25,845 bases of DNA from a virus: the IMG/VR virus record IMGVR_UViG_3300027784_000040, positions 1 to 25,845 of that record. One strand, written 5' to 3'. The notes beneath the pieces were generated by a model. It had not been told where the DNA came from and made no database searches. It saw only the letters and a list, made by a program, of their open reading frames with translations. The position numbers and the translations under genes are program-made. The first letter of the stretch is position 1. Every line of letters begins with the position of its first letter. Below are positions 1 through 17,386 of the stretch, in pieces.

Positions 1-30
1 GTTAGTATAGATAGAGATTAAATTTTAACG

Positions 31-58
31 TTGACATACCTTGAAGTTATGCTATACT
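31..58 (+). promoter_or_regulatory. Sigma-A-type extended -10 promoter for the early region
   Basis: TTGACA at 31-36 and TATACT at 53-58 are separated by 16 nt, and a TG dinucleotide one base before the -10 makes it an extended -10 promoter. It points at the sigma-like gene starting at 112. This is the strongest promoter in the left half and would be read by the unmodified host polymerase, so it is a good candidate for an immediate-early promoter. Confidence 0.8.
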
Positions 59-111
59 TGACATAAGCCCTTAGGGTGAGCAAACAAAACAACTTGAAAG
101 GATTGATAAAG

Positions 112-804
112 ATGAAACTGACCAATCGACAGATTATGAAAGAGGCCCACCGAAGGGCAAAGCAATATGAAGGAGACTATCAAGCATGTCTAGCCCTAGC
201 ACTCCGCGAAATCTACCGCGAACAAGGAGATCTAACATGCTCAGATAATCTGGAAGAAGAAGAAAACCAGTGGGAAAAACTTTTCGAATTTGCTCACAGA
301 CTAGGTGTCACAAATATATATCGAGCCGGGCTCGACGATGTATACGATCCCCATCAAGAAGGCCCAGACCTAGCTCAGCAAGCTCTCGGAGAGTTTATTG
401 AGAAATATGGAACCCTCGATCTCGATCTAAATGAGGCTAAGAGAGAGATAGCTATGAGAGTAAGATCACGGGCCTATGATCTGATCCGAAAGGAAGGCAG
501 AAAATACGAACAGGTAGGCGGTGTCTCCAGCCTATACGCTGGATCACACACAGCACTTAGACACTACACAGAAATCGGGATGGAGTCGGTAACCATGGAC
601 ACTGCAAATAACCCCGTACGCTATGCCATACACTCAGAAAGACTGCAAAAACTAAAAGCCAATCTCAAGCCGAAAGACCGAAACATTTTCGGCTACCTCC
701 TCGAAGGTTATTCCCAAGCTGATATTGCAAGAATGACAGGAAGGTCAAGGATGTCAGCTTCCCGCGACGTAAAACGCATTAAGAAGGTTGCACAGTCTAT
801 ATAA
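112..804 (+). CDS. Sigma-70-region-4-like DNA-binding regulator
   Basis: Predicted transcription regulator of 230 aa. The C-terminal 45 residues (from LKPKDRNIFGYLLEGYSQ on) read as a helix-turn-helix of the sigma-70 region 4 type, with the recognition-helix pattern YSQADIARMTGRSRMSASRD. A helical stretch around RVRSRAYDLIRKEGRK resembles part of sigma region 2. The N-terminus (MKLTNRQIMKEAHRRAKQYEGDY) is a start module common on Firmicutes phage hypothetical proteins. A longer frame opens at GTG 76, but ATG 112 is preferred because it has the GAAAGGA-TGATAAA site shared with neighbouring genes. It is the first gene after a strong host-type promoter and lies directly upstream of the repeated CCGTTAC elements, so it may act on them (inference). 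It could equally be an ArpU-like late regulator. Confidence 0.6.
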   Translation: MKLTNRQIMKEAHRRAKQYEGDYQACLALALREIYREQGDLTCSDNLEEEENQWEKLFEFAHRLGVTNIYRAGLDDVYDPHQEGPDLAQQALGEFIEKYGTLDLDLNEAKREIAMRVRSRAYDLIRKEGRKYEQVGGVSSLYAGSHTALRHYTEIGMESVTMDTANNPVRYAIHSERLQKLKANLKPKDRNIFGYLLEGYSQADIARMTGRSRMSASRDVKRIKKVAQSI

Positions 805-810
805 ATCCAT

Positions 811-844
811 CCGTTACAGATTGGCTCCTGTTTCGTAACATATA
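811..844 (+). promoter_or_regulatory. Repeated intergenic element, copy 1
   Basis: CCGTTACA at 811-818 and TCGTAACATATA at 833-844. GTTAC and GTAAC are 17 nt apart, as in all eight copies. Read as a promoter, GTTACA (813-818) and TAACAT (836-841) are 17 bp apart, a sigma-A spacing with 4/6 matches each. Read as an operator, the inverted half-sites are 22 bp centre to centre, about two helical turns. It follows the sigma-like gene and precedes the gene at 882. Confidence 0.6.
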
Positions 845-855
845 GCAGGAGCCAA
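821..855 (+). other. Perfect 10-bp stem-loop overlapping element copy 1
   Basis: TTGGCTCCTG (821-830) pairs perfectly with CAGGAGCCAA (846-855). The 15-nt loop contains the whole TCGTAACATATA half of the repeated element. No T-run follows, so it is not an intrinsic terminator. It could be an RNA hairpin in a read-through transcript or a DNA-level operator symmetry. Confidence 0.55.
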
Positions 856-881
856 CAAACACCCAAGGAAGGATGATTCAA

Positions 882-1103
882 ATGATGAAAGACTGCAAAT
901 ACTTCGCAAGGGAAGCATGGAAGGAACCGACTGGAATATCCACCGCTGAAGGAGCTGACGAAAAGATGACACTTTGCCAGTGCCATCTTTTCCAGTCGGT
1001 AGAAAAATGTAACACCGACTGTGAGGATTATGAACCAGGTGAATCGATACAACCAGAATGTAAAGGATCAAAAATCGGTAGGGATTTTGACAAAATTCAT
1101 TAA
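882..1103 (+). CDS. Small cysteine-rich protein, unknown
   Basis: Product of 73 aa that I do not recognise. It carries several cysteines (C5, then CQCH and later CNTDC plus one more near the end), so metal binding is plausible but no standard ribbon is complete. An in-frame ATG lies at 873, inside the ribosome site. ATG 882 is preferred because AAGGAAGGATGATTCAA immediately before it matches the spacing at other early genes; ATG 885 is also possible. It is a single-gene unit between element copies 1 and 2. Its last 30 nt can pair with the spacer of copy 2. Confidence 0.6.
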   Translation: MMKDCKYFAREAWKEPTGISTAEGADEKMTLCQCHLFQSVEKCNTDCEDYEPGESIQPECKGSKIGRDFDKIH

Positions 1104-1131
1104 AGCTAGCCGTTACAAAATCCTTATCGAT
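1074..1131 (+). other. 16-bp imperfect stem pairing a gene end with element copy 2
   Basis: Positions 1074-1089 can pair with 1116-1131 over 16 consecutive positions: 14 Watson-Crick and 2 G-U pairs. The left arm is the end of the gene at 882-1103; the right arm fills the interval between the two conserved halves of element copy 2. The G-U pairs suggest an RNA-level fold. No U-run follows. Confidence 0.45.
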
Positions 1132-1143
1132 TCGTAACATATA
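1110..1143 (+). promoter_or_regulatory. Repeated intergenic element, copy 2
   Basis: CCGTTAC at 1110-1116 and TCGTAACATATA at 1132-1143, with 17 nt between GTTAC and GTAAC. The TATA end runs into AATAGGAGGG, the ribosome site of the gene at 1163. A transcript starting about 7 nt after TAACAT would begin right at the Shine-Dalgarno sequence. Confidence 0.6.
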
Positions 1144-1162
1144 ATAGGAGGGTGATGATAAA

Positions 1163-1462
1163 ATGAAAAACGAAGTCAGACAATTTCAGAAGTTATTGAA
1201 CAGTAAAGTCCAGAGATTGTACAGCCCGCAAAAGAATCATCCCGCATTCCTTCGAGCAATGCAGGAGTATGAACACCATATAAAGACAGGTGTTTCGGAT
1301 ACCGAAATATTGCGGGAAGGTATCCGATACGTTGAAAACTGTAAGGAATATGATGACATTATGTGCACTGTGTGCAGTCATGTAAATTCTTCAGACTGCA
1401 ACGAGTGCACAGATACAAGCAAATTCTCCCCAGACTTCAAAGCAATAAGAAGATCACGATAA
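1163..1462 (+). CDS. Unknown protein with C-terminal zinc-binding motif
   Basis: Product of 99 aa, not recognised. The N-terminal two thirds look helical and charged. Residues about 68-81 contain CTVCSH followed by CNEC, four cysteines spaced like a small zinc knuckle. The start is supported by AGGAGGGTGATGATAAA directly before ATG. The unit sits between element copies 2 and 3 with its own ribosome site, so it may be expressed alone. The start region shares the 11-nt run GATAAAATGAA with the reverse complement of the small RNA predicted at 17387. Confidence 0.7.
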   Translation: MKNEVRQFQKLLNSKVQRLYSPQKNHPAFLRAMQEYEHHIKTGVSDTEILREGIRYVENCKEYDDIMCTVCSHVNSSDCNECTDTSKFSPDFKAIRRSR

Positions 1463-1496
1463 CCGTTACAAAACCCTTGCCGATTCGTAACATATA
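1463..1496 (+). promoter_or_regulatory. Repeated intergenic element, copy 3
   Basis: CCGTTAC starts on the base after the upstream stop codon (TAA, 1460-1462), and TCGTAACATATA ends at 1496, again with a 17-nt interval. GAAAGGAATGATAAAAA and the ATG at 1518 follow almost at once, leaving no room for other leader structure. Confidence 0.6.
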
Positions 1497-1517
1497 AATA
1501 GAAAGGAATGATAAAAA

Positions 1518-1739
1518 ATGAAACTTTTCGAAATAACTAGTATAGGTTACTTTGATGAAGTTGGCGTGATGGTAGCTGCTCGCAGCATGCGGGAGGCGTT
1601 CCATCACGCGAAACACAACGAGAATATTAGAGGAGGTGAGGAACGCGAAATAAAAATCAAACAAATCCCCGCTGTAGAATTTGACGCTGACGATACTAGA
1701 ACGATTGAAAGACATTATCATGAATACATTAATTTTTAA
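1518..1739 (+). CDS. Unknown small protein
   Basis: Product of 73 aa (begins MKLFEITSIGYFDEVGVM). No family is recognised. It reads as a small alpha/beta fold: a beta start, an AARSMREAFHHAKHNE helix, then a charged strand and an acidic C-terminal helix rich in His and Tyr. The ATG has the shared extended start site GAAAGGAATGATAAAAA. Single-gene unit between element copies 3 and 4. Confidence 0.65.
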   Translation: MKLFEITSIGYFDEVGVMVAARSMREAFHHAKHNENIRGGEEREIKIKQIPAVEFDADDTRTIERHYHEYINF

Positions 1740-1773
1740 CCGTTACAAATTGATAACGGTTTCGTAACATATA
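1740..1773 (+). promoter_or_regulatory. Repeated intergenic element, copy 4
   Basis: CCGTTAC begins directly after the TAA stop at 1737-1739; TCGTAACATATA is at 1762-1773 with the same 17-nt interval. In this copy the interval also contains TAACGG (1754-1759), which can pair with CCGTTA (1740-1745) to make a 6-bp stem, so the left half has an alternative partner. Confidence 0.6.
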
Positions 1774-1782
1774 GTAGAAGCG

Positions 1783-1846
1783 AATTGATTGGACAACACC
1801 CGACAGCAGCGAAAAATGGTTGCTGTCGGTGATTGGCTAATCAATT
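1783..1846 (+). other. Two-tier leader stem-loop S1
   Basis: The outer stem pairs 1783-1792 with 1837-1846 (AATTGATT against AATCAATT plus two more pairs). A symmetric internal loop of about 7 nt per side follows, then an inner stem CCGACAGCA (1800-1808) with TGCTGTCGG (1821-1829), extendable by two pairs. It lies between element copy 4 and the ribosome site at about 1856. The outer arms match those of S2, while the inner stem is unrelated but still perfectly paired. Confidence 0.65.
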
Positions 1847-1869
1847 ATAAAAAAGAAAGGAAGATTCAA

Positions 1870-2133
1870 ATGAAAGCTAAAGAAGTTTTTGACGGTGCTA
1901 GATTAGTTAAATTTAATGAGGATTATATCGCGTATGTTTGGCACGGCGGGCTGACTGTCAACATTTTCATTCTTAATGAAAATAATGACTGGTTAGCAAT
2001 CGATTGCTTCACCATGCACCCAGATGAGGACCTTTCTTACGAATTCCCGAAGAAGGATCCCGAAGATGTAGAAATGCACATTAATGATTTTATTGATGAT
2101 TATACTGAATATGTTAACTCAATCGACTGCTAG
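1870..2133 (+). CDS. Unknown acidic protein
   Basis: Product of 87 aa, not recognised. It is rich in Asp/Glu and aromatic residues, with strands at YIAYVWHGGLTVNIFIL and an acidic C-terminal helix. A frame opens at TTG 1789 but would translate the S1 stem-loop. ATG 1870 is chosen because GAAAGGAAGATTCAA sits at the right distance before it. That ribosome site is an 11-nt exact match (GAAAGGAAGAT) to the reverse complement of the small RNA at 17387. Confidence 0.65.
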   Translation: MKAKEVFDGARLVKFNEDYIAYVWHGGLTVNIFILNENNDWLAIDCFTMHPDEDLSYEFPKKDPEDVEMHINDFIDDYTEYVNSIDC

Positions 2134-2138
2134 ATTAG

Positions 2139-2172
2139 CCGTTACAATTGACCTGAAAATTCGTAATATATA
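2139..2172 (+). promoter_or_regulatory. Repeated intergenic element, copy 5
   Basis: CCGTTAC at 2139-2145 and TCGTAATATATA at 2161-2172, spacing 17 nt. This is the only copy whose right half departs from GTAAC (it has GTAAT), a change that makes a promoter reading stronger (TAATAT at the -10) and the inverted repeat weaker. Confidence 0.58.
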
Positions 2173-2185
2173 GACAGAAGGGAGG

Positions 2186-2244
2186 ATTGATTGACTTGCA
2201 GGGAGTAGGAGCCAAACGCTCCTGCTCCTCACTGGTTAATCAAT
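2186..2244 (+). other. Two-tier leader stem-loop S2
   Basis: The outer stem pairs 2186-2195 (ATTGATTGAC) with 2235-2244 (GTTAATCAAT), one G-U pair. The internal loop has TTGCA on the 5' side. The inner stem pairs 2202-2212 (GGAGTAGGAGC) with 2218-2228 (GCTCCTGCTCC), one G-U pair, with loop CAAAC. It follows element copy 5 and precedes the start site of the gene at 2267, the same position as S1. Confidence 0.7.
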
Positions 2245-2266
2245 TAAACCGAAAGGATGATAAAAA

Positions 2267-2734
2267 ATGATGAGGCAGGAAAGTTTGAAGAAAGTATTGG
2301 AAAATAACGGCGGAATGATCGTATCAGAAGGTACACTAAGGGCAGAGGATATGTTTCAGACTCTCAGATATATCATAGAAAAATATGAGGAATTCGACAG
2401 CAAAAAACTGAAACACGAATTTGATTTGGGGGAAGAACTGATAGAGAAAATCGAGCAGGAAGATGATAATTACTACCAAGATGTATTAGAACTAAATGAC
2501 ATAGTTTATTTACTGGAGGATCATGTCACCGCCAACACTCCAGAAGGATTTTGCTGGGGTACGGCAGAAGGTGATGGAGCTTGCTTCGGATTCTTCTGTG
2601 CTTGCCCTAGATGCACAGATATGGAAGGATGCGAGGAATCTGAGGCGGATAAAATCGACCAGCACGGAATGTGTTGGGATTGCAAAAATTATGAACACTT
2701 CGATGGGGAATGTCCTTACTGCTACGTTCAGTAA
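2267..2734 (+). CDS. Unknown protein with C-terminal zinc cluster
   Basis: Product of 155 aa, not recognised. Residues 1-90 are helical and strongly charged. The last 65 residues are cysteine-rich: CACPRC and a nearby GC, then CWDC and CPYC close to the end, enough for two zinc sites of the ribbon type. It could be a nucleic-acid or protein-binding adaptor, but no family match is claimed. Start site GAAAGGATGATAAAAA before ATG; the next codon is also ATG. The leader carries S2, and element copy 6 follows directly after the stop. Confidence 0.7.
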   Translation: MMRQESLKKVLENNGGMIVSEGTLRAEDMFQTLRYIIEKYEEFDSKKLKHEFDLGEELIEKIEQEDDNYYQDVLELNDIVYLLEDHVTANTPEGFCWGTAEGDGACFGFFCACPRCTDMEGCEESEADKIDQHGMCWDCKNYEHFDGECPYCYVQ

Positions 2735-2768
2735 CCGTTACAAATTGACCCGAAATTCGTAACATATA
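2735..2768 (+). promoter_or_regulatory. Repeated intergenic element, copy 6
   Basis: CCGTTAC begins on the base after the TAA stop at 2732-2734; TCGTAACATATA is at 2757-2768, 17-nt interval. The last base of the element is also the first base of the following 12-bp hairpin. Confidence 0.6.
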
Positions 2769-2795
2769 GTGAGGGGTGAAAGTTCACTCCTCACT
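2768..2795 (+). other. Leader hairpin S4
   Basis: Positions 2768-2779 (AGTGAGGGGTGA) pair with 2784-2795 (TCACTCCTCACT) over 12 bp with one G-U pair and a 4-nt loop. ATATAGT (2764-2770) could alternatively pair with ACTATAT (2799-2805). It lies in the leader of the gene at 2823, where S1 and S2 lie for their genes, but it lacks the outer stem/internal loop form. No U-run follows. Confidence 0.6.
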
Positions 2796-2822
2796 AAAAC
2801 TATATGAAAGGAATGATAAATT

Positions 2823-3140
2823 ATGATGCATTGGAAAGTTGAAAGAACAAATAATAAAGACTTGGTTTTTGAAGGTAACTGTTTGAGTAGGTATGACAAT
2901 GGTGATGATATATTCACAATTTACAAGACTAAGGAAGAAAGGTATATACTGGAAATAATTTATAAACCGTCAACTGCATCCACCTACAGGGAGGGAATGA
3001 TATTTGTAAACGTAACTGACCTAATAGAAGAATTGAAGATATTATCTCAGAATAGATTTAACTGTCCTTTTTATGATGGTTTTAAGGAGTTGTTATGGGG
3101 TGCTGGGCTTCAACATTTAACAGAAAGGAAGGTGAGATAG
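2823..3140 (+). CDS. Unknown protein
   Basis: Product of 105 aa, not recognised. It looks like a mixed beta-strand protein: WKVERTNNKDLVFEG, then FTIYKTKEERYILEIIYK, then a helix VTDLIEELKILSQ. Start ATG 2823 has GAAAGGAATGATAAATT before it; the next codon is also ATG. It is followed by the gene at 3142 with one base between stop and start, so the two are co-translated. Confidence 0.6.
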   Translation: MMHWKVERTNNKDLVFEGNCLSRYDNGDDIFTIYKTKEERYILEIIYKPSTASTYREGMIFVNVTDLIEELKILSQNRFNCPFYDGFKELLWGAGLQHLTERKVR

Positions 3141-3141
3141 A

Positions 3142-3501
3142 ATGAAGTCTTACCAGACTAAAATACCTATATTTAAAGAAAGTACTGTGGATGATTACGA
3201 ACATGGCGAATCCTCCAGAGAACGTCAAGTGGTGCCTATAGATATACAATTTAAAGGTGATACAGTCAAAGAAGTGGTTAAAGAGATAAAAGAATTCCAT
3301 TGTGTGAGTGATGATTACCTCCTCATTGAGCCATGCGGGGAAACTGGAAGAGTAGACGTCATGATAATGGAAGACCGCGACGGCATTAAAATGGAAAAAG
3401 GAGATAGGAATTATCAGCAATGGGTAAAAGGTGAAAAAACTTTATGGAGTGCAATCTACACTTATTATGTGCAAGAAGTTAGACCTGCATCACTGAGTTA
3501 A
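3142..3501 (+). CDS. Unknown protein
   Basis: Product of 119 aa, not recognised. No cysteine cluster, signal peptide or membrane segment. A beta-rich middle (VVPIDIQFKGDTVKEVVKEI) is followed by an acidic C-terminal half. The ribosome site AGAAAGGAAGGTGAGATAGA lies inside the end of the previous gene, one base away. Its TAA stop lies within the outer arm of stem-loop S3, so ribosomes finishing here would disturb that fold. Confidence 0.6.
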   Translation: MKSYQTKIPIFKESTVDDYEHGESSRERQVVPIDIQFKGDTVKEVVKEIKEFHCVSDDYLLIEPCGETGRVDVMIMEDRDGIKMEKGDRNYQQWVKGEKTLWSAIYTYYVQEVRPASLS

Positions 3502-3553
3502 TTGGCTTGCGGGAGGTAGAATGAAAATATTCTACCTCTCTTTGGTCAATTAA
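3498..3553 (+). other. Two-tier stem-loop S3 at a stop codon
   Basis: The outer stem pairs 3498-3506 (TTAATTGGC) with 3545-3553 (GTCAATTAA), one G-U pair. The internal loop is TTGC against TTTG. The inner stem pairs 3511-3522 with 3529-3540 over 12 bp, ten of them a perfect GAGGTAGAAT/ATTCTACCTC match. Architecture, outer-stem length and the TTGC loop match S2. Unlike S1 and S2 it lies before, not after, its neighbouring element (copy 7). Confidence 0.65.
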
Positions 3554-3569
3554 CCGTTACAAATTGACC
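3544..3569 (+). other. Alternative hairpin exclusive with S3
   Basis: GGTCAATT (3544-3551) pairs perfectly with AATTGACC (3562-3569); the 10-nt loop contains CCGTTAC of element copy 7. Forming it consumes the right outer arm of S3, so the two folds exclude each other. Confidence 0.45.
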
Positions 3570-3609
3570 TGAAACTCGTAACATATACCAGAGGAGGAGA
3601 TAAAATGAA
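3551..3609 (+). repeat. 59-bp exact direct repeat, copy A
   Basis: Identical base for base to 4826-4884. The block holds element copy 7, the GAGGAGGAGATAAA ribosome site and the first codons ATG-AA of the gene at 3605. The match stops at the third base of codon 2 on one side and one base before the TAACC on the other. Confidence 0.9.
3554..3587 (+). promoter_or_regulatory. Repeated intergenic element, copy 7
   Basis: CCGTTAC at 3554-3560 and TCGTAACATATA at 3576-3587, 17-nt interval. Identical to copy 8 and part of the 59-bp repeat. The interval begins AAATTGACC, the commonest interval sequence in the family. Confidence 0.62.
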
Positions 3610-3970
3610 AAATTTAGTCGGTTACTATTATGACATTTACAATCCAGAAACAGTTTTTTGCGTTGAGTGTGCAGAAAAACACTCAACGCAGAACAACCTT
3701 GAGATCGAAGATTATTTGCCGTTGTTTTATTACCATGACGTTGATAGCCCTTTGCACTGTGATGAATGCGAAAAATTAATACCGCTGACAATGACTGAGG
3801 AAGGTATCGACTACATACTAATGTCGCTTATAGGCTATGTAGTCGATGGTCACGGTAGGCAGGAAGTGATTACCGAGTGGTTGAGAGAATACGAGCATGA
3901 TATTGTTCAGCGTATGGAAAAAGACGCTGAATGGTTTTTCGAGAATATAATCATGGAGGTGGTAAAATGA
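3605..3970 (+). CDS. Zinc-binding protein, paralog of the gene at 5271
   Basis: Product of 121 aa. Two Cys pairs, CVEC near residue 18 and HCDEC near residue 56, suggest one zinc site. It is a paralog of the protein encoded at 5271-5675: both have a GY start, a CxxC pair, then DxPLHCxxC, LIP, a G(I/L)(D/E)YIL helix, a DxxGRxxV motif and W...Y. Function unknown; the shared core suggests a common, unnamed phage family. A perfect 12-bp hairpin (3659-3690) lies within the first CxxC coding region. The start site is inside the 59-bp repeat. The stop overlaps the next start (ATGA). Confidence 0.7.
   Translation: MKNLVGYYYDIYNPETVFCVECAEKHSTQNNLEIEDYLPLFYYHDVDSPLHCDECEKLIPLTMTEEGIDYILMSLIGYVVDGHGRQEVITEWLREYEHDIVQRMEKDAEWFFENIIMEVVK
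3659..3690 (+). other. Perfect 12-bp hairpin inside a coding sequence
   Basis: TGCGTTGAGTGT (3659-3670) and ACACTCAACGCA (3679-3690) are perfectly complementary, with an 8-nt loop GCAGAAAA. It begins at about codon 19 of the gene at 3605. No T-run follows. Confidence 0.75.
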
Positions 3971-4311
3971 CAGTTTATGTATCGATGGAGGATAGAGTTA
4001 TGGGCGGATTGATGAGTAATGAACGCGGATGGTTTTTTAATGAGGACAGGGAAGTTGAAATTATTATCAACAAGTTGATATTTCAGTGTGCAGATGAAAA
4101 GGAAGCTGAGATTGTTTATGACAACGCAAAGAATCGAAGTGATATGCAAAATATTAGAATACACAAAACGGATGAACCACCACAACCACAACCAAAACAG
4201 GATGAAAATACCAAACTGTACATTGAATATAAAACCAAAGCAGATTATCCCAAATTTTACGAACCGGGTAGATTCGCTCGGCTTGCAAGCGAAAGAAAGG
4301 GGGATAGATAG
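3967..4311 (+). CDS. Unknown protein with Pro-Gln linker
   Basis: Product of 114 aa, not recognised. The first 65 residues look alpha/beta (VEIIINKLIFQCADEKEAEIVYDNA). A PPQPQPKQ linker at about residue 70 joins a short basic/aromatic tail. ATG 3967 overlaps the previous stop and has GGAGGTGG upstream, so it is preferred to the in-frame ATG 3931 that lies inside the previous gene. Co-transcribed with the genes at 3605 and 4313. Confidence 0.65.
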   Translation: MTVYVSMEDRVMGGLMSNERGWFFNEDREVEIIINKLIFQCADEKEAEIVYDNAKNRSDMQNIRIHKTDEPPQPQPKQDENTKLYIEYKTKADYPKFYEPGRFARLASERKGDR

Positions 4312-4312
4312 C

Positions 4313-4816
4313 ATGAAAGTAGACAAGATTCAGGAAAAGGTTCGCGAATGGCTCGAAGGCGACAATAATCTGTGGAACGAAGGGCAGAACTTGCTTCGTC
4401 TCGCACTGGAATATCCATATACGGATGACGAGGGATGGAAGGAACTTGCAGAACACGCAGGAGATCTCACTGTGGAGGAAGTTGTGCAGGACTTATTCGG
4501 GAAGATCGGGCATTCAGACACTCCGGGCGATTGGTTCGAGTTCGCGGAAGGCATGAATTGGGGACTGTTCGACAGAGAACCGCACGAACCAGGGGAAGGC
4601 AACATTCAAGTGAGAGAAAAAGATGGAGATAAGTTGAAGGACGCCATGGCTGACATCCTCGACGAAGTGTATCGAGACATGGAGCTTGTCCAACCCGAAC
4701 CAAACTGGCTTGGCTGGGCACAACAAATGGACACAGCAACTCTCGCTGAGATACTTATAATCTTACGTGACGACTACAGCTGTCAGCACTATGTAGCCCA
4801 GCGGGGGTTGATATAA
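4313..4816 (+). CDS. Unknown acidic protein of higher G+C
   Basis: Product of 167 aa, not recognised. Highly acidic and Trp-rich, predicted helical, no cysteine motif. The same frame is open further upstream (from 4088), but ATG 4313 follows AAAGGGGGATAG and comes one base after the previous stop, so it is preferred. Base composition is unlike its neighbours: lines 4381-4440 and 4501-4560 contain 30 and 33 G/C of 60, whereas 5341-5400 contains 14 of 60. It is the last gene between the two copies of the 59-bp repeat, which is consistent with a later insertion. Confidence 0.65.
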   Translation: MKVDKIQEKVREWLEGDNNLWNEGQNLLRLALEYPYTDDEGWKELAEHAGDLTVEEVVQDLFGKIGHSDTPGDWFEFAEGMNWGLFDREPHEPGEGNIQVREKDGDKLKDAMADILDEVYRDMELVQPEPNWLGWAQQMDTATLAEILIILRDDYSCQHYVAQRGLI

Positions 4817-4825
4817 AATGAAAGC

Positions 4826-4884
4826 TAACCGTTACAAATTGACCTGAAACTCGTAACATATACCAGAGGAGGAGATAAAATGAA
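4826..4884 (+). repeat. 59-bp exact direct repeat, copy B
   Basis: Identical to 3551-3609 and covers element copy 8, the GAGGAGGAGATAAA ribosome site and the ATGAA start of the gene at 4880. The two copies are 1275 bp apart and bracket three genes. Confidence 0.9.
4829..4862 (+). promoter_or_regulatory. Repeated intergenic element, copy 8
   Basis: CCGTTAC at 4829-4835 and TCGTAACATATA at 4851-4862, 17-nt interval. It is the last copy in the array. The genes from 4880 to 7893 follow without another copy and mostly overlap, so this may be the promoter of the whole operon. Confidence 0.62.
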
Positions 4885-5134
4885 GTGTCCGAAGTGTTGG
4901 CAGGAACAATTAACATTGGTACAGGCGAAGAAGTCTCATTATCACTATGATATTAGGGATGGCGAGGTACACGTCGGTTTCGAACCTGAATCGATGGTTG
5001 AAGAACAGCAAGAAATACTTGAGGAGTTTGTTTACTGTAATGGTTGCGGTACCAAATTCAAAGCAACTGATAATGAAGGTGTTTGTGTGAATGTGAATGG
5101 TACTCTCATTGAATACAGGGAGGTGGGAAAATGA
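4880..5134 (+). CDS. Zinc-ribbon protein
   Basis: Product of 84 aa. It opens with a CPKC pair at residues 3-6 and has a second pair CNGCG near residue 54, typical of a treble-clef/zinc-ribbon fold split by a His-rich and acidic insert. The protein at 7391 has the same plan (CPVC start, later CFSCG), so these may be distant paralogs. Function not known. The start lies in the 59-bp repeat, with a 13-nt match (AGATAAAATGAAG) to the reverse complement of the small RNA at 17387. The stop overlaps the next start by ATGA. Confidence 0.7.
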   Translation: MKCPKCWQEQLTLVQAKKSHYHYDIRDGEVHVGFEPESMVEEQQEILEEFVYCNGCGTKFKATDNEGVCVNVNGTLIEYREVGK

Positions 5135-5274
5135 AGGATGAATACAGAAGAATCAGGTTCTGGATTAACAGATCAGAGGAAATATACCATTTACACAAAG
5201 ATCTGGCAATTAAGGAATTGCAGATAGCCAAAGACAGAATAGACAAAGCAATTGAAGAGTTAGAGGAACTATGA
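5131..5274 (+). CDS. Very small helical protein
   Basis: Product of 47 aa, not recognised. Predicted as one long amphipathic, charged helix (DLAIKELQIAKDRIDKAIEE), which could form a coiled coil. Its ATG overlaps the previous stop (ATGA) with GGGAGGTGGG upstream, and its own TGA overlaps the next ATG in the same way. The double translational coupling is the main evidence that it is real. Confidence 0.65.
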   Translation: MKDEYRRIRFWINRSEEIYHLHKDLAIKELQIAKDRIDKAIEELEEL

Positions 5275-5675
5275 TCGTAGGTTACAAGTTGAGTGAGGAT
5301 AGGCAGGTATGTTTGGATTGTTACGAGAAGATATCTGAAGAAGAATTACAATTCACAATGAATAAGAAAATTATTAAATATATCCATCACGATACTCCTT
5401 TACACTGCACAGATTGTCTTGTACTCATACCTGTTTATCTCAGTGATAATGGTTTGGAGTATATACTCGAAAGAATAGACAGTTATATGATTGATAATAT
5501 AGGCAGACCTGACGTGTTAAACAGATGGATAGATCATTATTATGAAGATTTACTGTACTTTGACCAGAGATACACAGTGGGGGTATTACTTTCAACAGTT
5601 GAAAGATTTTTGAAGAAAAGAGAAATTAGTTTAGAACACAGAAAAGATTCCGAAAATAGAGAGGAAGGATATTAA
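5271..5675 (+). CDS. Zinc-binding protein, paralog of the gene at 3605
   Basis: Product of 134 aa. It shares with the protein at 3605 a CLDC pair near residue 14, the DTPLHCTDC core, LIPV, GLEYIL, IGRPDV and W-x-D-H-Y, in the same order. The C-terminus is longer and basic/acidic. A zinc-stabilised adaptor role is plausible but unproven. Overlaps the previous gene by 4 nt; ribosome site AGAGGAACT. Confidence 0.7.
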   Translation: MIVGYKLSEDRQVCLDCYEKISEEELQFTMNKKIIKYIHHDTPLHCTDCLVLIPVYLSDNGLEYILERIDSYMIDNIGRPDVLNRWIDHYYEDLLYFDQRYTVGVLLSTVERFLKKREISLEHRKDSENREEGY

Positions 5676-5872
5676 TGAGTAATTTTGTGAGATTATCTGG
5701 CATGAATGGGAAAGAAATATACCTTAATTTAGGTAAAGTTTATTATTTTACTGAAAGGGATGATTACTTAACTGAGATATATTTGAGTTTGAAAGCGATA
5801 GACTACTCTATTGTGGTGGAAGAAACACCAGAAGAAATTCTTAAAAAGGAGGAGGAGGAAAATGAATTTTGA
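5675..5872 (+). CDS. FlbD-like small protein
   Basis: Product of 65 aa. The pattern FVRLSGMNGKEIYLNLGKVYY, followed by a strand and VVEETPEEILKK, resembles the FlbD family (start about MIKxTRLNGKEFxLN, ending VVKESVEEVI), best known from flagellar operons of Gram-positive bacteria. Phage homologs of this small beta fold occur as orphan genes, so a flagellar role should not be assumed. The ATG shares one base with the previous stop and follows GAGGAAGG. The poly-Glu end encodes a very strong ribosome site (AAGGAGGAGG) for a possible small frame at 5862. Confidence 0.5.
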   Translation: MSNFVRLSGMNGKEIYLNLGKVYYFTERDDYLTEIYLSLKAIDYSIVVEETPEEILKKEEEENEF

Positions 5873-5936
5873 TTTTTTCGAACACACACATATAGAGAGG
5901 ATGATGAATAATGTTAATAACTGTAGAAACCAGTGA
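5862..5936 (+). CDS. Possible 24-residue peptide
   Basis: A short frame whose ATG sits 5 nt after AAGGAGGAGG, one of the strongest ribosome sites in the region, overlapping the end of the FlbD-like gene and the start of the gene at 5911. The peptide has no recognisable feature. It may serve only to bring ribosomes to the ATG at 5911. Confidence 0.25.
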   Translation: MNFDFFEHTHIERMMNNVNNCRNQ

Positions 5937-6126
5937 AAGTATACGGGAAATGATAGGGGAAGGCATACTACATGGGGAAGTGATAGATGTCAGTGTTCAT
6001 CCGATTGATGAGACAATCAAAATCTTGGTTGAAAAGGGAGCTTACACTTACGTATTGGAAATAAAAGTAGATTGGATTTACTATGAAAGAAATCTATTTT
6101 TAGATATGTCTAAAAAGGAAGAGTGA
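5911..6126 (+). CDS. Unknown small protein
   Basis: Product of 71 aa, not recognised. Mostly beta-strand pattern (VIDVSVHPIDETIKILVEK, YTYVLEIKVDWIYYE) with an acidic/basic tail; possibly a small barrel. The ribosome site is GAGAGGATGATGAATA, a relaxed version of the shared start site. The next gene's ribosome site overlaps its stop. Confidence 0.6.
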   Translation: MLITVETSESIREMIGEGILHGEVIDVSVHPIDETIKILVEKGAYTYVLEIKVDWIYYERNLFLDMSKKEE

Positions 6127-6140
6127 GAGGAGAGATAGTG

Positions 6141-6371
6141 ATGTTTCTTAGTTTTCACAGGAATGACTACGATAACATGGAGATTGATTTACACGAACTG
6201 GACAGCGGTAATTTTTCCTTGAATGTAACATTCAAGAAAGGATATTGCGGAGTCTTTAATCAATCACTATTTTTCAAAGACAAGGAAGAGATCATGGAAT
6301 TTATCAACACTATGACTGAAGCGTTGGAAAAAGGACAAGCTTTACTAAGTTATGAGGAGGATGAAGAATGA
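6141..6371 (+). CDS. Unknown small protein
   Basis: Product of 76 aa, not recognised. Strands (FSLNVTFKKGYCGVF) followed by an amphipathic helix (KEEIMEFINTMTEALEKG) and an acidic end. An earlier in-frame GTG at 6123 would place the ribosome site GAGAGGAGAG inside the gene, so ATG 6141 is preferred. The stop overlaps the following start (ATGA). Confidence 0.6.
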   Translation: MFLSFHRNDYDNMEIDLHELDSGNFSLNVTFKKGYCGVFNQSLFFKDKEEIMEFINTMTEALEKGQALLSYEEDEE

Positions 6372-6727
6372 AAGACATTGATGTTGCATTACAATCAAGA
6401 ATGGAAACTGTACACAGGATACTGGATGCTGAGCGGGGTGAAGAATATCCTGATGATCTACCTTACTTTAATGAGTTAGGTCTATCTGTAGAGGAAGTGG
6501 CTGACGATATAGACTATGTGGCATGGGTATTGTCGACAGGCGGACCGCACGAGGAAATTAGATTCTATCTTGGCTATGATGTGGAGCGTCAAATACCTAA
6601 ACCTATCAAATTTACATTTGTGTTAGCTGAGTGGGGAAATTTTGAGCAAAAACAAATTACCGAATCTGAGGACAAGAAAGCACTGCATCAAATATTCTAT
6701 AGATTATACGGAGGTGTCCACGAATGA
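6368..6727 (+). CDS. Unknown protein
   Basis: Product of 119 aa, not recognised. A helical N-terminal half (METVHRILDAERGEEYPDD, VEEVADDIDYVAWVLSTGG) leads into a beta segment (PIKFTFVLAEWGNFEQKQI). Translation is coupled at both ends by 4-nt ATGA overlaps. Ribosome site GAGGAGGATGAAG inside the previous gene. Confidence 0.62.
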   Translation: MKDIDVALQSRMETVHRILDAERGEEYPDDLPYFNELGLSVEEVADDIDYVAWVLSTGGPHEEIRFYLGYDVERQIPKPIKFTFVLAEWGNFEQKQITESEDKKALHQIFYRLYGGVHE

Positions 6728-6864
6728 CGTTTACTGTACCAGATGGTTTTCACCTGCCGACGGATAAATGGGAGTGTCTGGATTGCGGATGCGAATTCTT
6801 CTGTGACTTGGGTGATGATTGTCCAGATTGTAAAGGTACGAATGTAGTAAGGAGTGATAAATAA
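6724..6864 (+). CDS. Rubredoxin-like zinc-ribbon peptide
   Basis: Product of 46 aa with CLDCGC and CPDCKG pairs about 14 residues apart. This is the two-knuckle arrangement of rubredoxin-like or zinc-ribbon minidomains, which bind one Zn or Fe. Start overlaps the previous stop (ATGA) with GGAGGTGTCCACGA upstream, and the TAA shares a base with the next ATG. Function unknown, possibly a protein-interaction or nucleic-acid-binding module. Confidence 0.7.
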   Translation: MTFTVPDGFHLPTDKWECLDCGCEFFCDLGDDCPDCKGTNVVRSDK

Positions 6865-7097
6865 TGGAGGATATTATTAACACCATATTATGGGAAGCTG
6901 AGTACAACGGACCATTGCATATGACAGATATAGAGAAAATACTTATTGAAAATGATACCTGTCCATGGTGTTTTTCTCCGCTACGTCAATTGACTGCCGA
7001 CGAATACAGGGAAACGCTAGACCCCGGTCACAATGTTTATGAAACTGTAGTTATTGGTTTGGAATGTGACATATGTGACTGGAAAGAAGATTTTTGA
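6864..7097 (+). CDS. Zinc-finger protein, unknown
   Basis: Product of 77 aa. Helical N-terminus (residues 1-30), then CPWC near residue 33 and CDIC near residue 70, likely one zinc site. Start overlaps the previous stop by one base; ribosome site AAGGAGTGATAA. One of several CxxC proteins in a row in this operon. Confidence 0.65.
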   Translation: MEDIINTILWEAEYNGPLHMTDIEKILIENDTCPWCFSPLRQLTADEYRETLDPGHNVYETVVIGLECDICDWKEDF

Positions 7098-7112
7098 GAA
7101 AGGGGAGTGTTG

Positions 7113-7385
7113 ATGATGAGAGCAAGTTTGTGTGAAAAGTGCGGGGAAGTATTTGATACTTACACTTCCCCGCCCAAATGCTCCGGTTGTGGGGTGAGAG
7201 GTTGGAAGTATGTTAAAATGGGTCATTGGGATCGAGCACAGATAATAGCCCGGAGATACGGAATGAGTACTGACACAGTCGCTGAAGCGTTGGCGGAGAT
7301 ACATGAGGATCCGGAGGAGGCAATGGGTGAAGTTATCGAATCACCTGATCTTATCTTTAAAATACTGCAAAATGTGGAGGTGTAA
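7113..7385 (+). CDS. Zinc-ribbon plus helical protein
   Basis: Product of 90 aa. The N-terminal ribbon CEKCGE...CSGCG (about residues 7-26) is followed by a helical segment (RAQIIARRYGMSTDTVAEALAE) that looks like a short helix-turn-helix, then an acidic tail. DNA binding is possible. The frame can be opened at GTG 7107, but AAAGGGGAG just before makes ATG 7113 or 7116 likelier. A perfect 10-bp hairpin covers the ribbon coding region (7141-7173). Confidence 0.6.
   Translation: MMRASLCEKCGEVFDTYTSPPKCSGCGVRGWKYVKMGHWDRAQIIARRYGMSTDTVAEALAEIHEDPEEAMGEVIESPDLIFKILQNVEV
7141..7173 (+). other. Perfect 10-bp hairpin inside a coding sequence
   Basis: GCGGGGAAGT (7141-7150) pairs with ACTTCCCCGC (7164-7173); loop of 13 nt. 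It begins at about codon 10 of the gene at 7113, between its two CxxC pairs. No T-run follows. Its placement resembles that of the hairpin at 3659-3690. Confidence 0.7.
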
Positions 7386-7390
7386 TTATT

Positions 7391-7612
7391 ATGGATTGTC
7401 CAGTGTGTGGGGAGGAAATAATACTGGTTAAAGTGGAAAAGAAGATAAATTTTTATCGTATGCCATGCGGATCCTCACCTTATTCACCAGTAGATTTAAC
7501 AGAGCAGTATTTCAAATGCTTCAGTTGTGGTTTGAAATACGATCCAATACCTCATAGTTATATAATTCAATACGATGAAGATTACTATGTATCATCTATG
7601 GAGGAAAAATAA
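7391..7612 (+). CDS. Zinc-ribbon protein
   Basis: Product of 73 aa. CPVCGEE at residues 3-9 and CFSCG near residue 45 form a likely zinc ribbon, with an aromatic-rich tail (YIIQYDEDYYVSS). Same plan as the protein at 4880. The ribosome site GGAGGTGTAATT lies at the end of the previous gene. The last base of the stop is the first base of the next ATG. Confidence 0.65.
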   Translation: MDCPVCGEEIILVKVEKKINFYRMPCGSSPYSPVDLTEQYFKCFSCGLKYDPIPHSYIIQYDEDYYVSSMEEK

Positions 7613-7893
7613 TGGAACTGTTAGCAGAGTTTGTTGAAGGTGAGAAATTAAGTGCATTATTAAAGACAATCAGTGCGGAAATTGTTAACAACATGGATAA
7701 AGAAAACTTCGATAAGTATCTCAACCTTCGGGATGAACTGGAGGAGGTGATAGATGAAGACATTCCCGAAGGTATTGTTATCTCAACACTTGTGGATCTG
7801 TCGATATTGAGAGCGTTGGAATATATTGAAGATCTGACAGTATTTGAACGTAAAAGAGTGCATGAAATACTTGCTGAGGAGTTGCATGAATAG
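7612..7893 (+). CDS. Unknown helical protein
   Basis: Product of 93 aa, not recognised. Predicted all-helical and acidic, no cysteines. Start shares a base with the previous stop; ribosome site ATGGAGGAAAAATA. Last gene of the early block: its stop lies in the spacer of the promoter at 7882-7910. Confidence 0.6.
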   Translation: MELLAEFVEGEKLSALLKTISAEIVNNMDKENFDKYLNLRDELEEVIDEDIPEGIVISTLVDLSILRALEYIEDLTVFERKRVHEILAEELHE

Positions 7894-7910
7894 GTAAACT
7901 ATGGTAGTAT
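7882..7910 (+). promoter_or_regulatory. Promoter for the replication operon
   Basis: TTGCAT (7882-7887) and TAGTAT (7905-7910) are 17 nt apart, with TG one base before the -10, giving an extended -10 sigma-A-type promoter. It lies in the only gap of the left half that lacks the CCGTTAC element, ahead of the ribbon-helix-helix gene at 7955. This marks a change of regulation from the small-gene block to the replication block. Confidence 0.6.
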
Positions 7911-7954
7911 AGAGTTACGTCTCGATTAACACAACTTAAGGAGGTATTAAAAAG

Positions 7955-8203
7955 ATGGTTAAACCAAAAAACACTACAGTAGGCTCACGGCTGTATTTAC
8001 CGCTAGCAGATCATAGGAGGTTGAAGAAGTTTACGAAGAAGATAGGCATAAGTATGGCAGAGTTTAATAGGCAGGTAATTATGTGGGCTATACGCGAAAG
8101 TCCTGAAAAGCTGGTTGAGTTGGGAGTGGACATACCTTACAGACCGAATAGACCTAAACAGCAGAGTATACTGGAGGAGGTAGAGGAGGAAATCAATGCT
8201 TAG
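7955..8203 (+). CDS. Ribbon-helix-helix-like DNA-binding protein
   Basis: Product of 82 aa. A short strand (SRLYLPL) is followed by two helices (HRRLKKFTKKIG, MAEFNRQVIMWAIRES), the arrangement of Arc/MetJ-type ribbon-helix-helix repressors. The N-terminus is basic and the C-terminus acidic. As first gene of the replication operon just after its promoter, it may autoregulate (inference). Ribosome site AAGGAGGTATTAAAAAG. Overlaps the helicase gene by 8 nt. Confidence 0.55.
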   Translation: MVKPKNTTVGSRLYLPLADHRRLKKFTKKIGISMAEFNRQVIMWAIRESPEKLVELGVDIPYRPNRPKQQSILEEVEEEINA

Positions 8204-9515
8204 ACTTGATGATTACCAGTTAGAAGGTATTGATTTTCTTCAGAAGGGTAATAAACTGCTTGGAGATAAAATGGGGTTGGGTAAGTCTGCTCAGTCTATC
8301 GTAGCAGCTGACGGAATACTCAACCAACAACCTTCTTACTGGAAGGTACTGGTAGTGACAAAGAAATCAATGATAGTCGAATGGAAACACGAAATAAAAA
8401 AGTGGTCAAACAGGTCAGTCGGTATACTGACAACGCAATCTGAATATCCAGAAGATGCGGATTTTATAGTCACTAACTACAGAGCACTATTCAAATGGGA
8501 TCTGAATAAGCATCACATTCTTATAGTTGACGAATCACATAAAGTGAAGAATAGAAAGACAAAGACGTTCAAATGTGTGCGAGATTTAGCCCGTAAAGCG
8601 GAGTACGTTTGGCTTCTCACAGCTTCACCGAGTCCTAACGGTCCAGAGGACTTGTGGGCACAGTTCAATATACTTGACCACAAAACTTTTCCGAGTTTCT
8701 GGAATTGGGCTAATATGTTCCTGTACGTATGGCATAATGGATTCGGTATGGAGGTTGGAGAGGTCAGACCTGATGCCAAGGATATATGGGATAAATACAG
8801 GGATACGTATATGCTACAACGCAGTAAAGATATACTTGACCTGCCACCGTTGTCGATGGAGAGCGTCCGCGTAGGTTGGAGAAACAGACAGCTTGAGATG
8901 TACGAGCAGATGAAGTATTCAATGATACTGGATATGGGAGATAAACTGGAATTGACTGACCATGTACTATCTCAGTTGACGAGATTACGTCAGATAGCCA
9001 CAGATCCTGTTACAATTAAAGAGGATCTGGGAGGGTCTGGTAAAACTGAATGGATAAAAGAGTTTGCTGAGGATACGCAGGAGCAGGTATTGATATTCAG
9101 TCAGTTCTCAACCTACATTGACCATATAGTGGATGAAATAGGGGATGGTGCAGATAAATTGATAGGTAGTATGACATCAAGTCAACGTGACGCGGTGATA
9201 AACTCCTTCCGGCAGGGTAACACTCAGTTTCTATGCGGTACTATAGGAGCAATGGGTGAGGGATTGAACCTCCAACAAGCTGAGATAGTTATATTTTCAG
9301 ACTTACCGTGGACACCAGATGAATTCCAGCAGGCATATTCCAGAGCACACAGACGGGGGCAGGAGAATCCCGTGCACGTTATCAAGTTGTTGAGTGAGGA
9401 TTCTGTGGACGAGTATATGGACGAGTTGTTACACAAAAAGGACAGAATTATCAGTGAAGCACTGGCACAGAGAACTATTCTGGAGCGTATCAAGAAGGAG
9501 GGGTTTAGTCAATGA
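8196..9515 (+). CDS. SNF2-like superfamily 2 helicase
   Basis: Product of 439 aa, an ATP-dependent DNA translocase/helicase of the phage SNF2 type. Q-motif-like YQLEG near the start, Walker A GDKMGLGKS (23-31), motif II DESH (112-115), motif III LLTASPSP (about 140), and C-terminal domain with VLIFSQFSTY, GLNLQQA and motif VI SRAHRRGQ (about 381-389). DESH replaces the usual DEAH. At 439 aa it is a minimal helicase core without accessory domains. Likely role: DNA replication or recombination remodelling in the host cytoplasm. Overlaps the nuclease gene by ATGA. Ribosome site GAGGAGGAAATCA. Confidence 0.9.
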   Translation: MLRLDDYQLEGIDFLQKGNKLLGDKMGLGKSAQSIVAADGILNQQPSYWKVLVVTKKSMIVEWKHEIKKWSNRSVGILTTQSEYPEDADFIVTNYRALFKWDLNKHHILIVDESHKVKNRKTKTFKCVRDLARKAEYVWLLTASPSPNGPEDLWAQFNILDHKTFPSFWNWANMFLYVWHNGFGMEVGEVRPDAKDIWDKYRDTYMLQRSKDILDLPPLSMESVRVGWRNRQLEMYEQMKYSMILDMGDKLELTDHVLSQLTRLRQIATDPVTIKEDLGGSGKTEWIKEFAEDTQEQVLIFSQFSTYIDHIVDEIGDGADKLIGSMTSSQRDAVINSFRQGNTQFLCGTIGAMGEGLNLQQAEIVIFSDLPWTPDEFQQAYSRAHRRGQENPVHVIKLLSEDSVDEYMDELLHKKDRIISEALAQRTILERIKKEGFSQ

Positions 9516-11897: not shown

Positions 11898-11927
11898 GAG
11901 CAGGGGTAGCCGTTACTACCCCTGCTC
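11898..11927 (+). other. 12-bp hairpin before the primase gene
   Basis: GAGCAGGGGTAG (11898-11909) pairs perfectly with CTACCCCTGCTC (11916-11927), loop CCGTTA. It is as strong as an intrinsic terminator stem, but the following bases (CTGCTTCTTGAG) are not a clean T-run, so termination would be partial at best. A role in attenuation, mRNA protection or replication is open. Confidence 0.65.
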
Positions 11928-14262: not shown

Positions 14263-14765
14263 AGTCAGAAATACTCGCGTTTGATCCCGGTAAATCAATT
14301 GGATGGTGTAGATTAGTTCCGCCACTCGAAATACTAGAGTCAGGTACTTTCCATTATAAAGATTATCAAACAATGACTGACTTGATACGTTCATTGGCTG
14401 ACGTTGATACGTTGGTTGCAGAGGACTTCCGGCTGTACCCCGGTAAGGGTGACGCTCTGGCTTGGGATGATTTACCAGCACCGCAGGCGATTGGTATGTT
14501 GAAGGTAATCACTTGGCAGGAACCTTATCCAAAGCAGATTGAGTTTCTCATGCCCAGCAGTAAACAATCTGTACCTACAGATTTGCTTGAGGAAATGAAT
14601 ATAGATTGGCACACACCTCACGAAAGGGATGCAATTAAACTGGCTTTGTTTTATTCATTATTCAAAATGGATTATCAACAACATGAAGAAGTGCAAGAGG
14701 TACTGAGGAGGTGGGCAGATGCTCGCAAGAGGTCTGGACGTGCTTCCAGACGGAGCAAATTGTGA
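14259..14765 (+). CDS. RuvC-like Holliday-junction resolvase
   Basis: Product of 168 aa with an RNase H fold. FDPGKSIGWC carries the first catalytic Asp (residue 8), VAEDF the Glu, and HERDAIKLAL the C-terminal Asp pair, the order seen in RuvC-like phage resolvases. It would cut branched replication or recombination intermediates before packaging. ATG 14259 overlaps the previous stop and follows GGGGAAGGAAAA; ATG 14232 is in frame but lies inside the upstream gene. Its basic C-terminal tail overlaps the polymerase gene by 47 nt. Confidence 0.75.
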   Translation: MKSEILAFDPGKSIGWCRLVPPLEILESGTFHYKDYQTMTDLIRSLADVDTLVAEDFRLYPGKGDALAWDDLPAPQAIGMLKVITWQEPYPKQIEFLMPSSKQSVPTDLLEEMNIDWHTPHERDAIKLALFYSLFKMDYQQHEEVQEVLRRWADARKRSGRASRRSKL

Positions 14766-16980
14766 GGATTGTGATTTGATTGAACAACCTTTCGTAGGTA
14801 GTGTGGGTAATAAGGATGCAGATATAGCAGTTATAGGCAAGGCACCTAGTGCTGATGAAGTAAAGAAAGGTAAACCATTTACTGATAGAGCAGGTGAAAT
14901 ACTGAATGGAATCCTGAAAGAAGTAGGTATTGAACGTTCGGAATTATACATGACAAATACTGTATGTTGTAAACCTGAGGATAATCGTGACCCAAGGGCT
15001 AAGGAATACAAATCCTGTCACGGAAGAATGATAAATGAACTTGAAGAAGTTGATCCTGATATTATATTAATTATGGGTAATATACCTCTACGGAGTATGC
15101 TGGGTGAGACAGGAATTACAAAATGGCGGGGAGGTGTCGAAGAATATCCCGGTAAAGATTGGATTGTAATACCCACCTTTCATCCAGCATCTATACTTCG
15201 TAATCCTTCTTGGCGTGATGATGTTGTGGAGGATTTACGTCTGACAAAGAAAATTTCTGAGAGAGGTTTGAGTGTGCTGGAAGAACATGAACCTGACTAC
15301 CAATGGCTCACTACAACCGAAGCTATGGTAAAACTAAGTAGAATGGACGAAGTGGTGGTAGACGTTGAAACAAGCTCAGAAGGAAGCTTACTGTGTATAG
15401 GGTTTGCTGATGTCAGATACCCGGATAAACAGTACATCATATCTTATGAGCACATTAATAGTAATCTCCAATTTAAGAATTACATGATAGCTCACAATAT
15501 GAAGTTTGAAGCACAGGTATTCTGGAGGCACGGGATTGAATGCAACTTTACAATGTGTGATGATACTATGCTTATGCACTATGCTATGGATCCACGTAAA
15601 GGTCAGCATGGTCTTAAGAAATTGGCTAACAATTATTTTCATGCTGGAAACTACGATCAGGACATACAAGAGTACATTACTGAGATGGAAAAATGCCCTG
15701 AAGATCTGATGTTCCGATACAACGCACTGGATGTATACTTTACAGCCAAACTATACAACAAGTTTGTTGAGGAAATGTCTGAAAGAGAGCAATACGTTTA
15801 TAATAGATTATTAATACCAACCATGCAAACACTGACTGAAATGGAGTACAAGGGAATACCGATTGATGTTGAGGAACTTGAACGTACTGAGAAATATCTG
15901 GATGGTAAACTTCATTCGATAACTGAGAGAATATATGAATTTGCTGGTAAGGAGTTTAACCTCAATTCGTGGCAACAGAAAGCCGAAGTGTTATACGAGG
16001 ATCTGGAAATACCTATCCCCGGACGGCTGTCAACAGATAAAGATGCACTCGAAAAGATAAAAGATTATCATCCGATTATACCTCTCATGCAGGAGTATAA
16101 CAAACTTAATAAATTACAGGGTACCTACATCAAGGGAATGAAGGAAAAACTAGATGAGGAAAATAAACTGCACACCAATTTTAATGTACATGGTACTGAG
16201 ACCGGGAGATTATCGAGTAGTGGCCCGAACCTTCAGAACATTCCTAAACGTGGAGAACACGCTGGATTAGTTAAGAATCTATTTGTACCTGAAGAAGGTA
16301 AGGTATTATGGGAAGCAGACTTTTCGCAAGCCGAACTAAGGTGTTTGGCATACTATTCCAATGACCCTACACTGATGGAAACATTCCACAAACGAGATGA
16401 TATTCATACTACCACAGCTGCTGGTATCTACGAAGTATCACCTGAAGATGTAACTGAAGAACAGCGTGACGTGGGTAAGACGGCAAACTTTGCAATTCTC
16501 TACGGAGTCAGTCCGCATGGATTGTCCAAACTATTGGATTCCTCCAAAGAGGAAGCCAAAGAAGTTATAAAAGGTTGGTTCAATCTGTACCCTAAAGCAG
16601 AGGAGTTTATGCGGGAGGTACAGGAGAAAGCACTTGAAGATGGATACGTCGACACACCGACTGGAAGGAGGAGATATTTTTACCCAGCAGGTAACAATAC
16701 TGGTTTTATACGCAGGCAGGCAGGTAACACACCGATTCAATCACTGGCATGGGATGTAACTCGTGAGAGTATGGTTGATATTCATTTACAGGGATATGAC
16801 ATACGTCTGACGGTACATGACTCAGTTATAGGAATGTCGGACAAAGATGAATTTGATCCTTATCCGATAAAAAAGACCATGGAGGAATCAGCCAATGAGT
16901 TACTGAATCATAAAGTGCCTTTTGTGGTTGACATATCGGTAGGACTAAGTTGGGGAGATATGGAGGAATTAGACCTATGA
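14719..16980 (+). CDS. UDG-domain / family A DNA polymerase fusion
   Basis: Product of 753 aa, the replicative polymerase. Residues 1-180 form a family-4-like uracil-DNA glycosylase domain with four cluster cysteines (C15, C18, C84, C100), GKAPSADE (40-47) and HPAS at 155-158. A 3'-5' exonuclease follows (DVE at 215-217, AHNMKFE, YNALD with D338). The polymerase part has motif A DFSQAELR (D534), motif B with QRDVGKTANFAILYG, and motif C VHDS (D701). In family 4 enzymes the first motif is usually GEAPG; Lys41 here replaces that Glu, so glycosylase activity is doubtful and the domain may only bind uracil or DNA. Ribosome site GAGGAGGTGGGCAG. Confidence 0.9.
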   Translation: MLARGLDVLPDGANCEDCDLIEQPFVGSVGNKDADIAVIGKAPSADEVKKGKPFTDRAGEILNGILKEVGIERSELYMTNTVCCKPEDNRDPRAKEYKSCHGRMINELEEVDPDIILIMGNIPLRSMLGETGITKWRGGVEEYPGKDWIVIPTFHPASILRNPSWRDDVVEDLRLTKKISERGLSVLEEHEPDYQWLTTTEAMVKLSRMDEVVVDVETSSEGSLLCIGFADVRYPDKQYIISYEHINSNLQFKNYMIAHNMKFEAQVFWRHGIECNFTMCDDTMLMHYAMDPRKGQHGLKKLANNYFHAGNYDQDIQEYITEMEKCPEDLMFRYNALDVYFTAKLYNKFVEEMSEREQYVYNRLLIPTMQTLTEMEYKGIPIDVEELERTEKYLDGKLHSITERIYEFAGKEFNLNSWQQKAEVLYEDLEIPIPGRLSTDKDALEKIKDYHPIIPLMQEYNKLNKLQGTYIKGMKEKLDEENKLHTNFNVHGTETGRLSSSGPNLQNIPKRGEHAGLVKNLFVPEEGKVLWEADFSQAELRCLAYYSNDPTLMETFHKRDDIHTTTAAGIYEVSPEDVTEEQRDVGKTANFAILYGVSPHGLSKLLDSSKEEAKEVIKGWFNLYPKAEEFMREVQEKALEDGYVDTPTGRRRYFYPAGNNTGFIRRQAGNTPIQSLAWDVTRESMVDIHLQGYDIRLTVHDSVIGMSDKDEFDPYPIKKTMEESANELLNHKVPFVVDISVGLSWGDMEELDL

Positions 16981-17380: not shown

Positions 17381-17386
17381 ATACTT

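Follow-up and report, generated by a model that had tools for sequence, protein, structure and literature searches.

The window analysed here, a virus record of 25,845 bp taken over its whole length, is probably a fragment of a larger genome, and the host of the virus is probably a Gram-positive bacterium. At the left end of the window, a host-type promoter sequence precedes the gene for a sigma factor-like protein, and eight copies of a single intergenic element follow it:

31 to 58, plus strand: host-type promoter sequence, TTGACA-16-TATACT with TG before the −10 (extended −10), 11/12 match
112 to 804, plus strand: gene for a 230-aa sigma-70/ECF-like protein by profile matches, candidate reader of the elements
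811 to 844, plus strand: element copy 1, expected +1 at 848
1110 to 1143, plus strand: element copy 2, expected +1 at 1147
1463 to 1496, plus strand: element copy 3, expected +1 at 1500
1740 to 1773, plus strand: element copy 4, expected +1 at 1777
2139 to 2172, plus strand: element copy 5, the GTAAT variant, expected +1 at 2176
2735 to 2768, plus strand: element copy 6, expected +1 at 2772
3554 to 3587, plus strand: element copy 7, expected +1 at 3591
4829 to 4862, plus strand: element copy 8, the last copy, expected +1 at 4866, with tightly packed genes downstream

The element reads CCGTTAC-N17-GTAAY-ATATA in all eight copies, every one of them on the plus strand. The first-pass annotation had placed copies at 811, 1110, 1463, 1740, 2139, 2735, 3554 and 4829 and had described a constant 17-nt interval and a single GTAAT; all eight copies are present at these positions, the interval is identical in length in 8/8 and GTAAT was found once, in the copy at 2139. 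The invariant part is CCGTTACA...TCGTAAYATATA, usually with TAA or TAG directly before it. The conserved blocks are TAR-CCGTTACAAA on the left and TTCGTAAC-ATATA on the right, and the interior varies in sequence while remaining constant in length. Positions 37–40 from the start of the invariant part, just past ATATA, are purines in all eight copies, even in the four with a more distant ribosome-binding site. Copies 7 and 8 including their flanks are identical over 59 nt (3551–3609 for copy 7).

When up to two mismatches were allowed, the pattern gave 17 matches in the window against 1.05 expected, and none of 100 shuffles reached this number. The matches consisted of the eight copies, seven reverse readings of copies and two others. 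With a 37-position matrix the copies scored 43–55 bits, their reverse readings approximately 10 bits or less and the best other place, reverse readings aside, below 0. Neither strand of the remaining record contained a further copy. In the viral contig collection the pattern occurred in 11 contigs with one copy each, which is about the chance level by a rough estimate, and the strict pattern had no match in 84,980 bacterial and archaeal species genomes.

Other local features were also observed. In copy 1 (822–856), the right block is flanked by a perfect 10-bp inverted repeat made up of the spacer sequence TTGGCTCCTG and the post-element sequence CAGGAGCCAA. Just 5′ of copy 8, at 4814–4836, the start-like sequence ATGAAAGCTAA is similar to the beginning of the gene at 1870 and continues into the element, looking as if the element had cut off a gene start. 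Further along, at 11898–11927, the gap upstream of the primase-helicase gene contains a perfect 12-bp hairpin (GAGCAGGGGTAG...CTACCCCTGCTC), whose loop is spanned by a stray CCGTTAC.

The placement of the copies follows the gaps between genes. Between 804 and 4880, consecutive genes are separated by 50 nt or more in eight places; a single copy is present in each of these, and the three tight junctions of this interval (3140/3142, 3970/3967 and 4311/4313) lack the element. Past 4880, most genes overlap or follow one another closely, and the element is missing from the wider gaps that follow 5872, 7893 and 11872. It is likewise absent before the sigma-like gene at 112 and before the leftward genes at 17.5–25.8 kb. 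The copies had been described as starting soon after a stop codon, which does not apply to the copy at 3554, 52 nt past the stop with a hairpin between, and as ending just before the next ribosome site, which does not apply to the copies at 811, 1740, 2139 and 2735, where the leaders are 25–93 nt. Counted from the expected start, four units have leaders of 14–18 nt and one has a leader of 25 nt; the leaders of the other three, at 51–93 nt, carry strong hairpins. The hairpins adjoining the element are:

1783 to 1846, plus strand: strong hairpin in the leader downstream of copy 4, ahead of the ribosome-binding site, −34.5 kcal/mol, z −7.0
2185 to 2246, plus strand: strong hairpin in the leader downstream of copy 5, ahead of the ribosome-binding site, −39.3 kcal/mol, z −7.2
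2767 to 2796, plus strand: leader hairpin by RNA folding, beginning at the end of copy 6
3497 to 3554, plus strand: hairpin upstream of copy 7 that spans the stop codon ending the gene at 3142, of the same kind as those at 1783–1846 and 2185–2246

The outer arms of the hairpin at 2185–2246 resemble those of the hairpin at 1783–1846, and the similarity (ATTGATTG...GGTTAATCAATT) extends to the hairpin at 3497–3554; the inner stems of the three differ yet still pair. Two of the three are leaders and one lies upstream of an element.

The protein encoded at 112–804 was compared with profile collections. It matched the NCBIfam sigma70-ECF model TIGR02937 (E 4.5e-8, aa 84–227, below the curated cut-off), the RNA polymerase sigma factor family phrog_1740 (E 2e-6, aa 51–226) and Pfam Sigma70_r4_2 (E 1.7e-5, below the curated cut-off). 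When residues 1–168 or 74–168 were used alone, no sigma model matched in Pfam or NCBIfam, so the joint sigma70-ECF match leans on region 4. From these comparisons a sigma region 4 is well supported and a sigma region 2 is plausible. The single-sequence structure model was poor (pLDDT 55.5), and its top Foldseek matches were mostly sigma factors, many of ECF type, at non-significant scores. The first-pass annotation had named this protein as a suspected binder of the element; it appears to have picked the right suspect, with the sigma-70/ECF model matches pointing to a sigma factor rather than a repressor. No anti-sigma gene was recognised in this phage. The promoter sequence at 31–58, upstream of the sigma-like gene, is the best host-type match within positions 1–9000. 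No close relatives of the gene 112 protein were found in the viral contig, genome contig and phage collections, nor of the polymerase, the primase or a 1199-aa protein in the viral contig collection, and the collections searched yielded no relative in which sigma and element vary together.

Elsewhere in the window, the small proteins of 3605–3970 and 5271–5675 are apparently paralogous. The former weakly matches the DksA/TraR zinc finger (Pfam E 1.6e-4, below cut-off) and on this account may act on RNA polymerase. The DNA polymerase A of 14719–16980 has its N-terminus fused to a uracil-DNA glycosylase superfamily domain (Pfam UDG E 2.8e-27). On the minus strand, the gene at 19010–20182 combines a subtilase with a copper amine oxidase N-terminal-like domain and adjoins amidase and holin genes.

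Taken together, the eight elements are best read as promoters of one phage-specific class, used by RNA polymerase carrying the ECF-like sigma of 112–804, to which we assign a probability of roughly two in three. A promoter had been among the readings suggested for the element, and it is the one best borne out by orientation, placement, rigid spacing, asymmetric edges and the adjacent sigma-like gene. In the ECF register all copies read CGTTAC-N16-CGTAAC, with the last C changed once. ECF sigma factors require strict −35 and −10 sequences and a rigid spacer (PMC6411747); SigW promoters have the form TGAAAC-N16,17-CGTA and BldN promoters the form CGTAAC-N16-CGTTGA (PMC2375139). The features of this promoter type, namely a −35 ending in AC, a rigid spacer of 16–17 nt and a −10 with CGT, are all found in the element. 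The ECF −10 motif has been numbered X−14 G−13 T−12 Y−11 (PMC10575876); fitted to CGTA, it puts the +1 on position 37, which is a purine in 8/8 copies, the start itself being predicted from sequence. Phage-sigma promoters are typically few and well conserved (PMC4331800), and the element is likewise present as few, well-conserved intergenic copies oriented with transcription (8/8, one per gap).

Under the phage-sigma reading, the main sigma factor of the host would first transcribe the phage sigma gene from TTGACA-16-TATACT at 31–58. The phage sigma would then bind the polymerase and switch on eight transcription units, together because all eight signals would be read by the virus's own sigma factor. 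The left block CCGTTACAAA would serve as the −35 element, the right block TTCGTAAC as the −10 element and ATATA as the melting region. RNA would start at the purine approximately 4 nt past ATATA, so that four units would have very short leaders and three would have leaders with hairpins, and the last copy (4829) could also serve the packed genes up to about 17.2 kb.

The same arrangement was weighed against other explanations. The blocks GTTAC and GTAAC could be inverted half-sites at which a dimer of the 112 protein, or of another DNA-binding protein of the phage, represses or activates each unit; a dimer operator had also been suggested by the first-pass annotation. A mild dyad symmetry is indeed seen, each arm having TAnnnGTTACnAA (P 0.0006 given the centre, 0.023 corrected over all centres), and it counts against the sigma reading in that a sigma factor needs none; the half-site centres are 22 bp apart, or about two helical turns, and stoperators are likewise intergenic in one orientation (PMC9283540). 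However, a symmetric dimer site needs neither a single orientation nor invariant asymmetric flanks (CC on one side, ATATA on the other), and the low matrix scores of the reverse readings relative to the copies point the same way. Pfam scans of the genes tested gave no repressor-type regulator and no integrase, and no other promoter was identified from which the units could be regulated. From the sequence, a promoter accounts better for the rigid spacing, the asymmetric outer edges and the single orientation than a dimer operator does, and operator sites are considered unlikely as the whole explanation; an operator could overlap a promoter in a mixed case. At the RNA level, the element might fold into a hairpin or be a site of processing in transcripts that read through it, since GUUAC and GUAAC can pair and strong hairpins adjoin several copies. 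When folded without the neighbouring hairpins, the element does no better than shuffles (z +0.67, +0.54, −0.57), for which the hairpin reading was rejected; it has no Rfam match, and there is no covariation in support of a stem because the stem hardly varies. An RNA-level role is considered highly improbable.

It is also conceivable, if more doubtful than the operator, that a host sigma factor, either housekeeping or ECF, uses the elements as promoters and that the 112 protein has some other function. The hexamers GTTACA-17-TAACAT, put forward earlier as a housekeeping promoter, have housekeeping spacing and match at 4/6 and 4/6 positions, and host ECF sigmas use the same geometry as the element (PMC2375139). 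A total of 8/12 nevertheless falls below the cut-off of the host-type promoter scan (9/12 match to the TTGACA/TATAAT hexamers), which listed none of the eight copies in that register, so that the housekeeping assignment was not upheld. The phage has far better host-type promoters, at 31–58 (11/12) and 17352–17380 (12/12); the invariant CC, TTCG and ATATA would be left unexplained; and the strict pattern is absent from the bacterial and archaeal genomes searched. Read on sequence, the ECF register explains more of the element than the housekeeping hexamers do. A nested housekeeping promoter in the spacer (TTGACC, four copies) was considered and rejected, the spacing being too short and the motif absent from the other copies.

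A further locus, separate from the element, lies between convergent gene blocks:

about 17387 to 17462, plus strand: putative small RNA, with a 12/12 promoter at 17352–17380, a terminator at 17429–17462 and support from a pairing test

The locus (17352–17462) combines the 12/12 host-type promoter, approximately 40 largely unpaired nucleotides and a strong terminator, and the unpaired part contains UUCAUUUUAUCUUCCUUUC, which is complementary to the early ribosome-site consensus. Mean predicted pairing of the putative RNA was −20.9 kcal/mol with the start regions of the twelve genes from 112 to 4880 and −15.1 kcal/mol with those of later rightward genes (P 9e-5), although the twelve pairings are not independent tests because the early start regions resemble one another. 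A plain anti-Shine–Dalgarno sequence does not separate early from later genes (−14.5 against −14.1). Among 8,602 segments from both strands, this locus was the only place in the top 30 other than the opposite strand of an early start region. Since the same bases on the minus strand read as a ribosome site with a four-codon frame, a relic of a gene start is an alternative to a small RNA. A small RNA gene at about 17387–17462 is likely on the available sequence. More tentatively, there may be a two-layer regulon in which the ECF-like sigma opens the eight promoters and the small RNA base-pairs at the ribosome-binding sites of nearly all early genes, the sigma gene included, and far less well at those of later genes, shutting off translation of the early set together; we treat this as a possibility with the odds against it. 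To our knowledge, no phage small RNA acting in trans on a whole early regulon has been described. The closest parallel found, the c4 RNA of P1/P7, acts at a single ribosome site, where it blocks translation (PMC12197685).

If the phage-sigma reading is true, an orphan phage sigma factor gains a clear target sequence from genome data alone, and the compact sigma–promoter pair could serve as a tool for orthogonal expression; early-gene takeover would also have a clean example in a virus without a close relative. If the small RNA is real, one gene set would be controlled at the levels of transcription and translation jointly.

Several known systems resemble the arrangement in part. The start-associated (SAS) and ESAS repeats of cluster K mycobacteriophages, which the first-pass annotation had offered as a parallel, also occur in many intergenic copies before start codons, mostly in one orientation. 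The parallel holds for placement but not for sequence: SAS is GGGATAGGAGCCC and ESAS has imperfect inverted repeats of 17 bp whose spacer varies (PMC3203893), whereas the element here differs in sequence, has a fixed spacer and short arms, and does not qualify as either. The stoperators of cluster A mycobacteriophages are similarly repeated, asymmetric intergenic sites oriented with transcription, but they are 13-mer sites of a monomeric repressor (PMC9283540) and the element is 34 nt in two blocks. SigW and BldN ECF promoters share a −35 ending in AC, a spacing of 16 nt and a −10 starting with CGT; compared with SigW, the left box is CGTTAC rather than TGAAAC, the element is on a phage and no anti-sigma gene was recognised. 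Also similar are the promoters of phage sigma factors (SPO1 gp28/gp34 and the sigma factors of phiEco32 and 7-11), in which the sigma is made early and reads few, highly conserved, private intergenic promoters (PMC4331800, PMC9429907). The 7-11 promoter motif, TG-TGATGT-TATA, is unlike the element, and a bipartite ECF-type box here stands before nearly every early unit while the sigma gene itself is without one. Phage sigma factors with private, well-conserved, low-copy promoters are thus known, and what is new is the sequence of the element.
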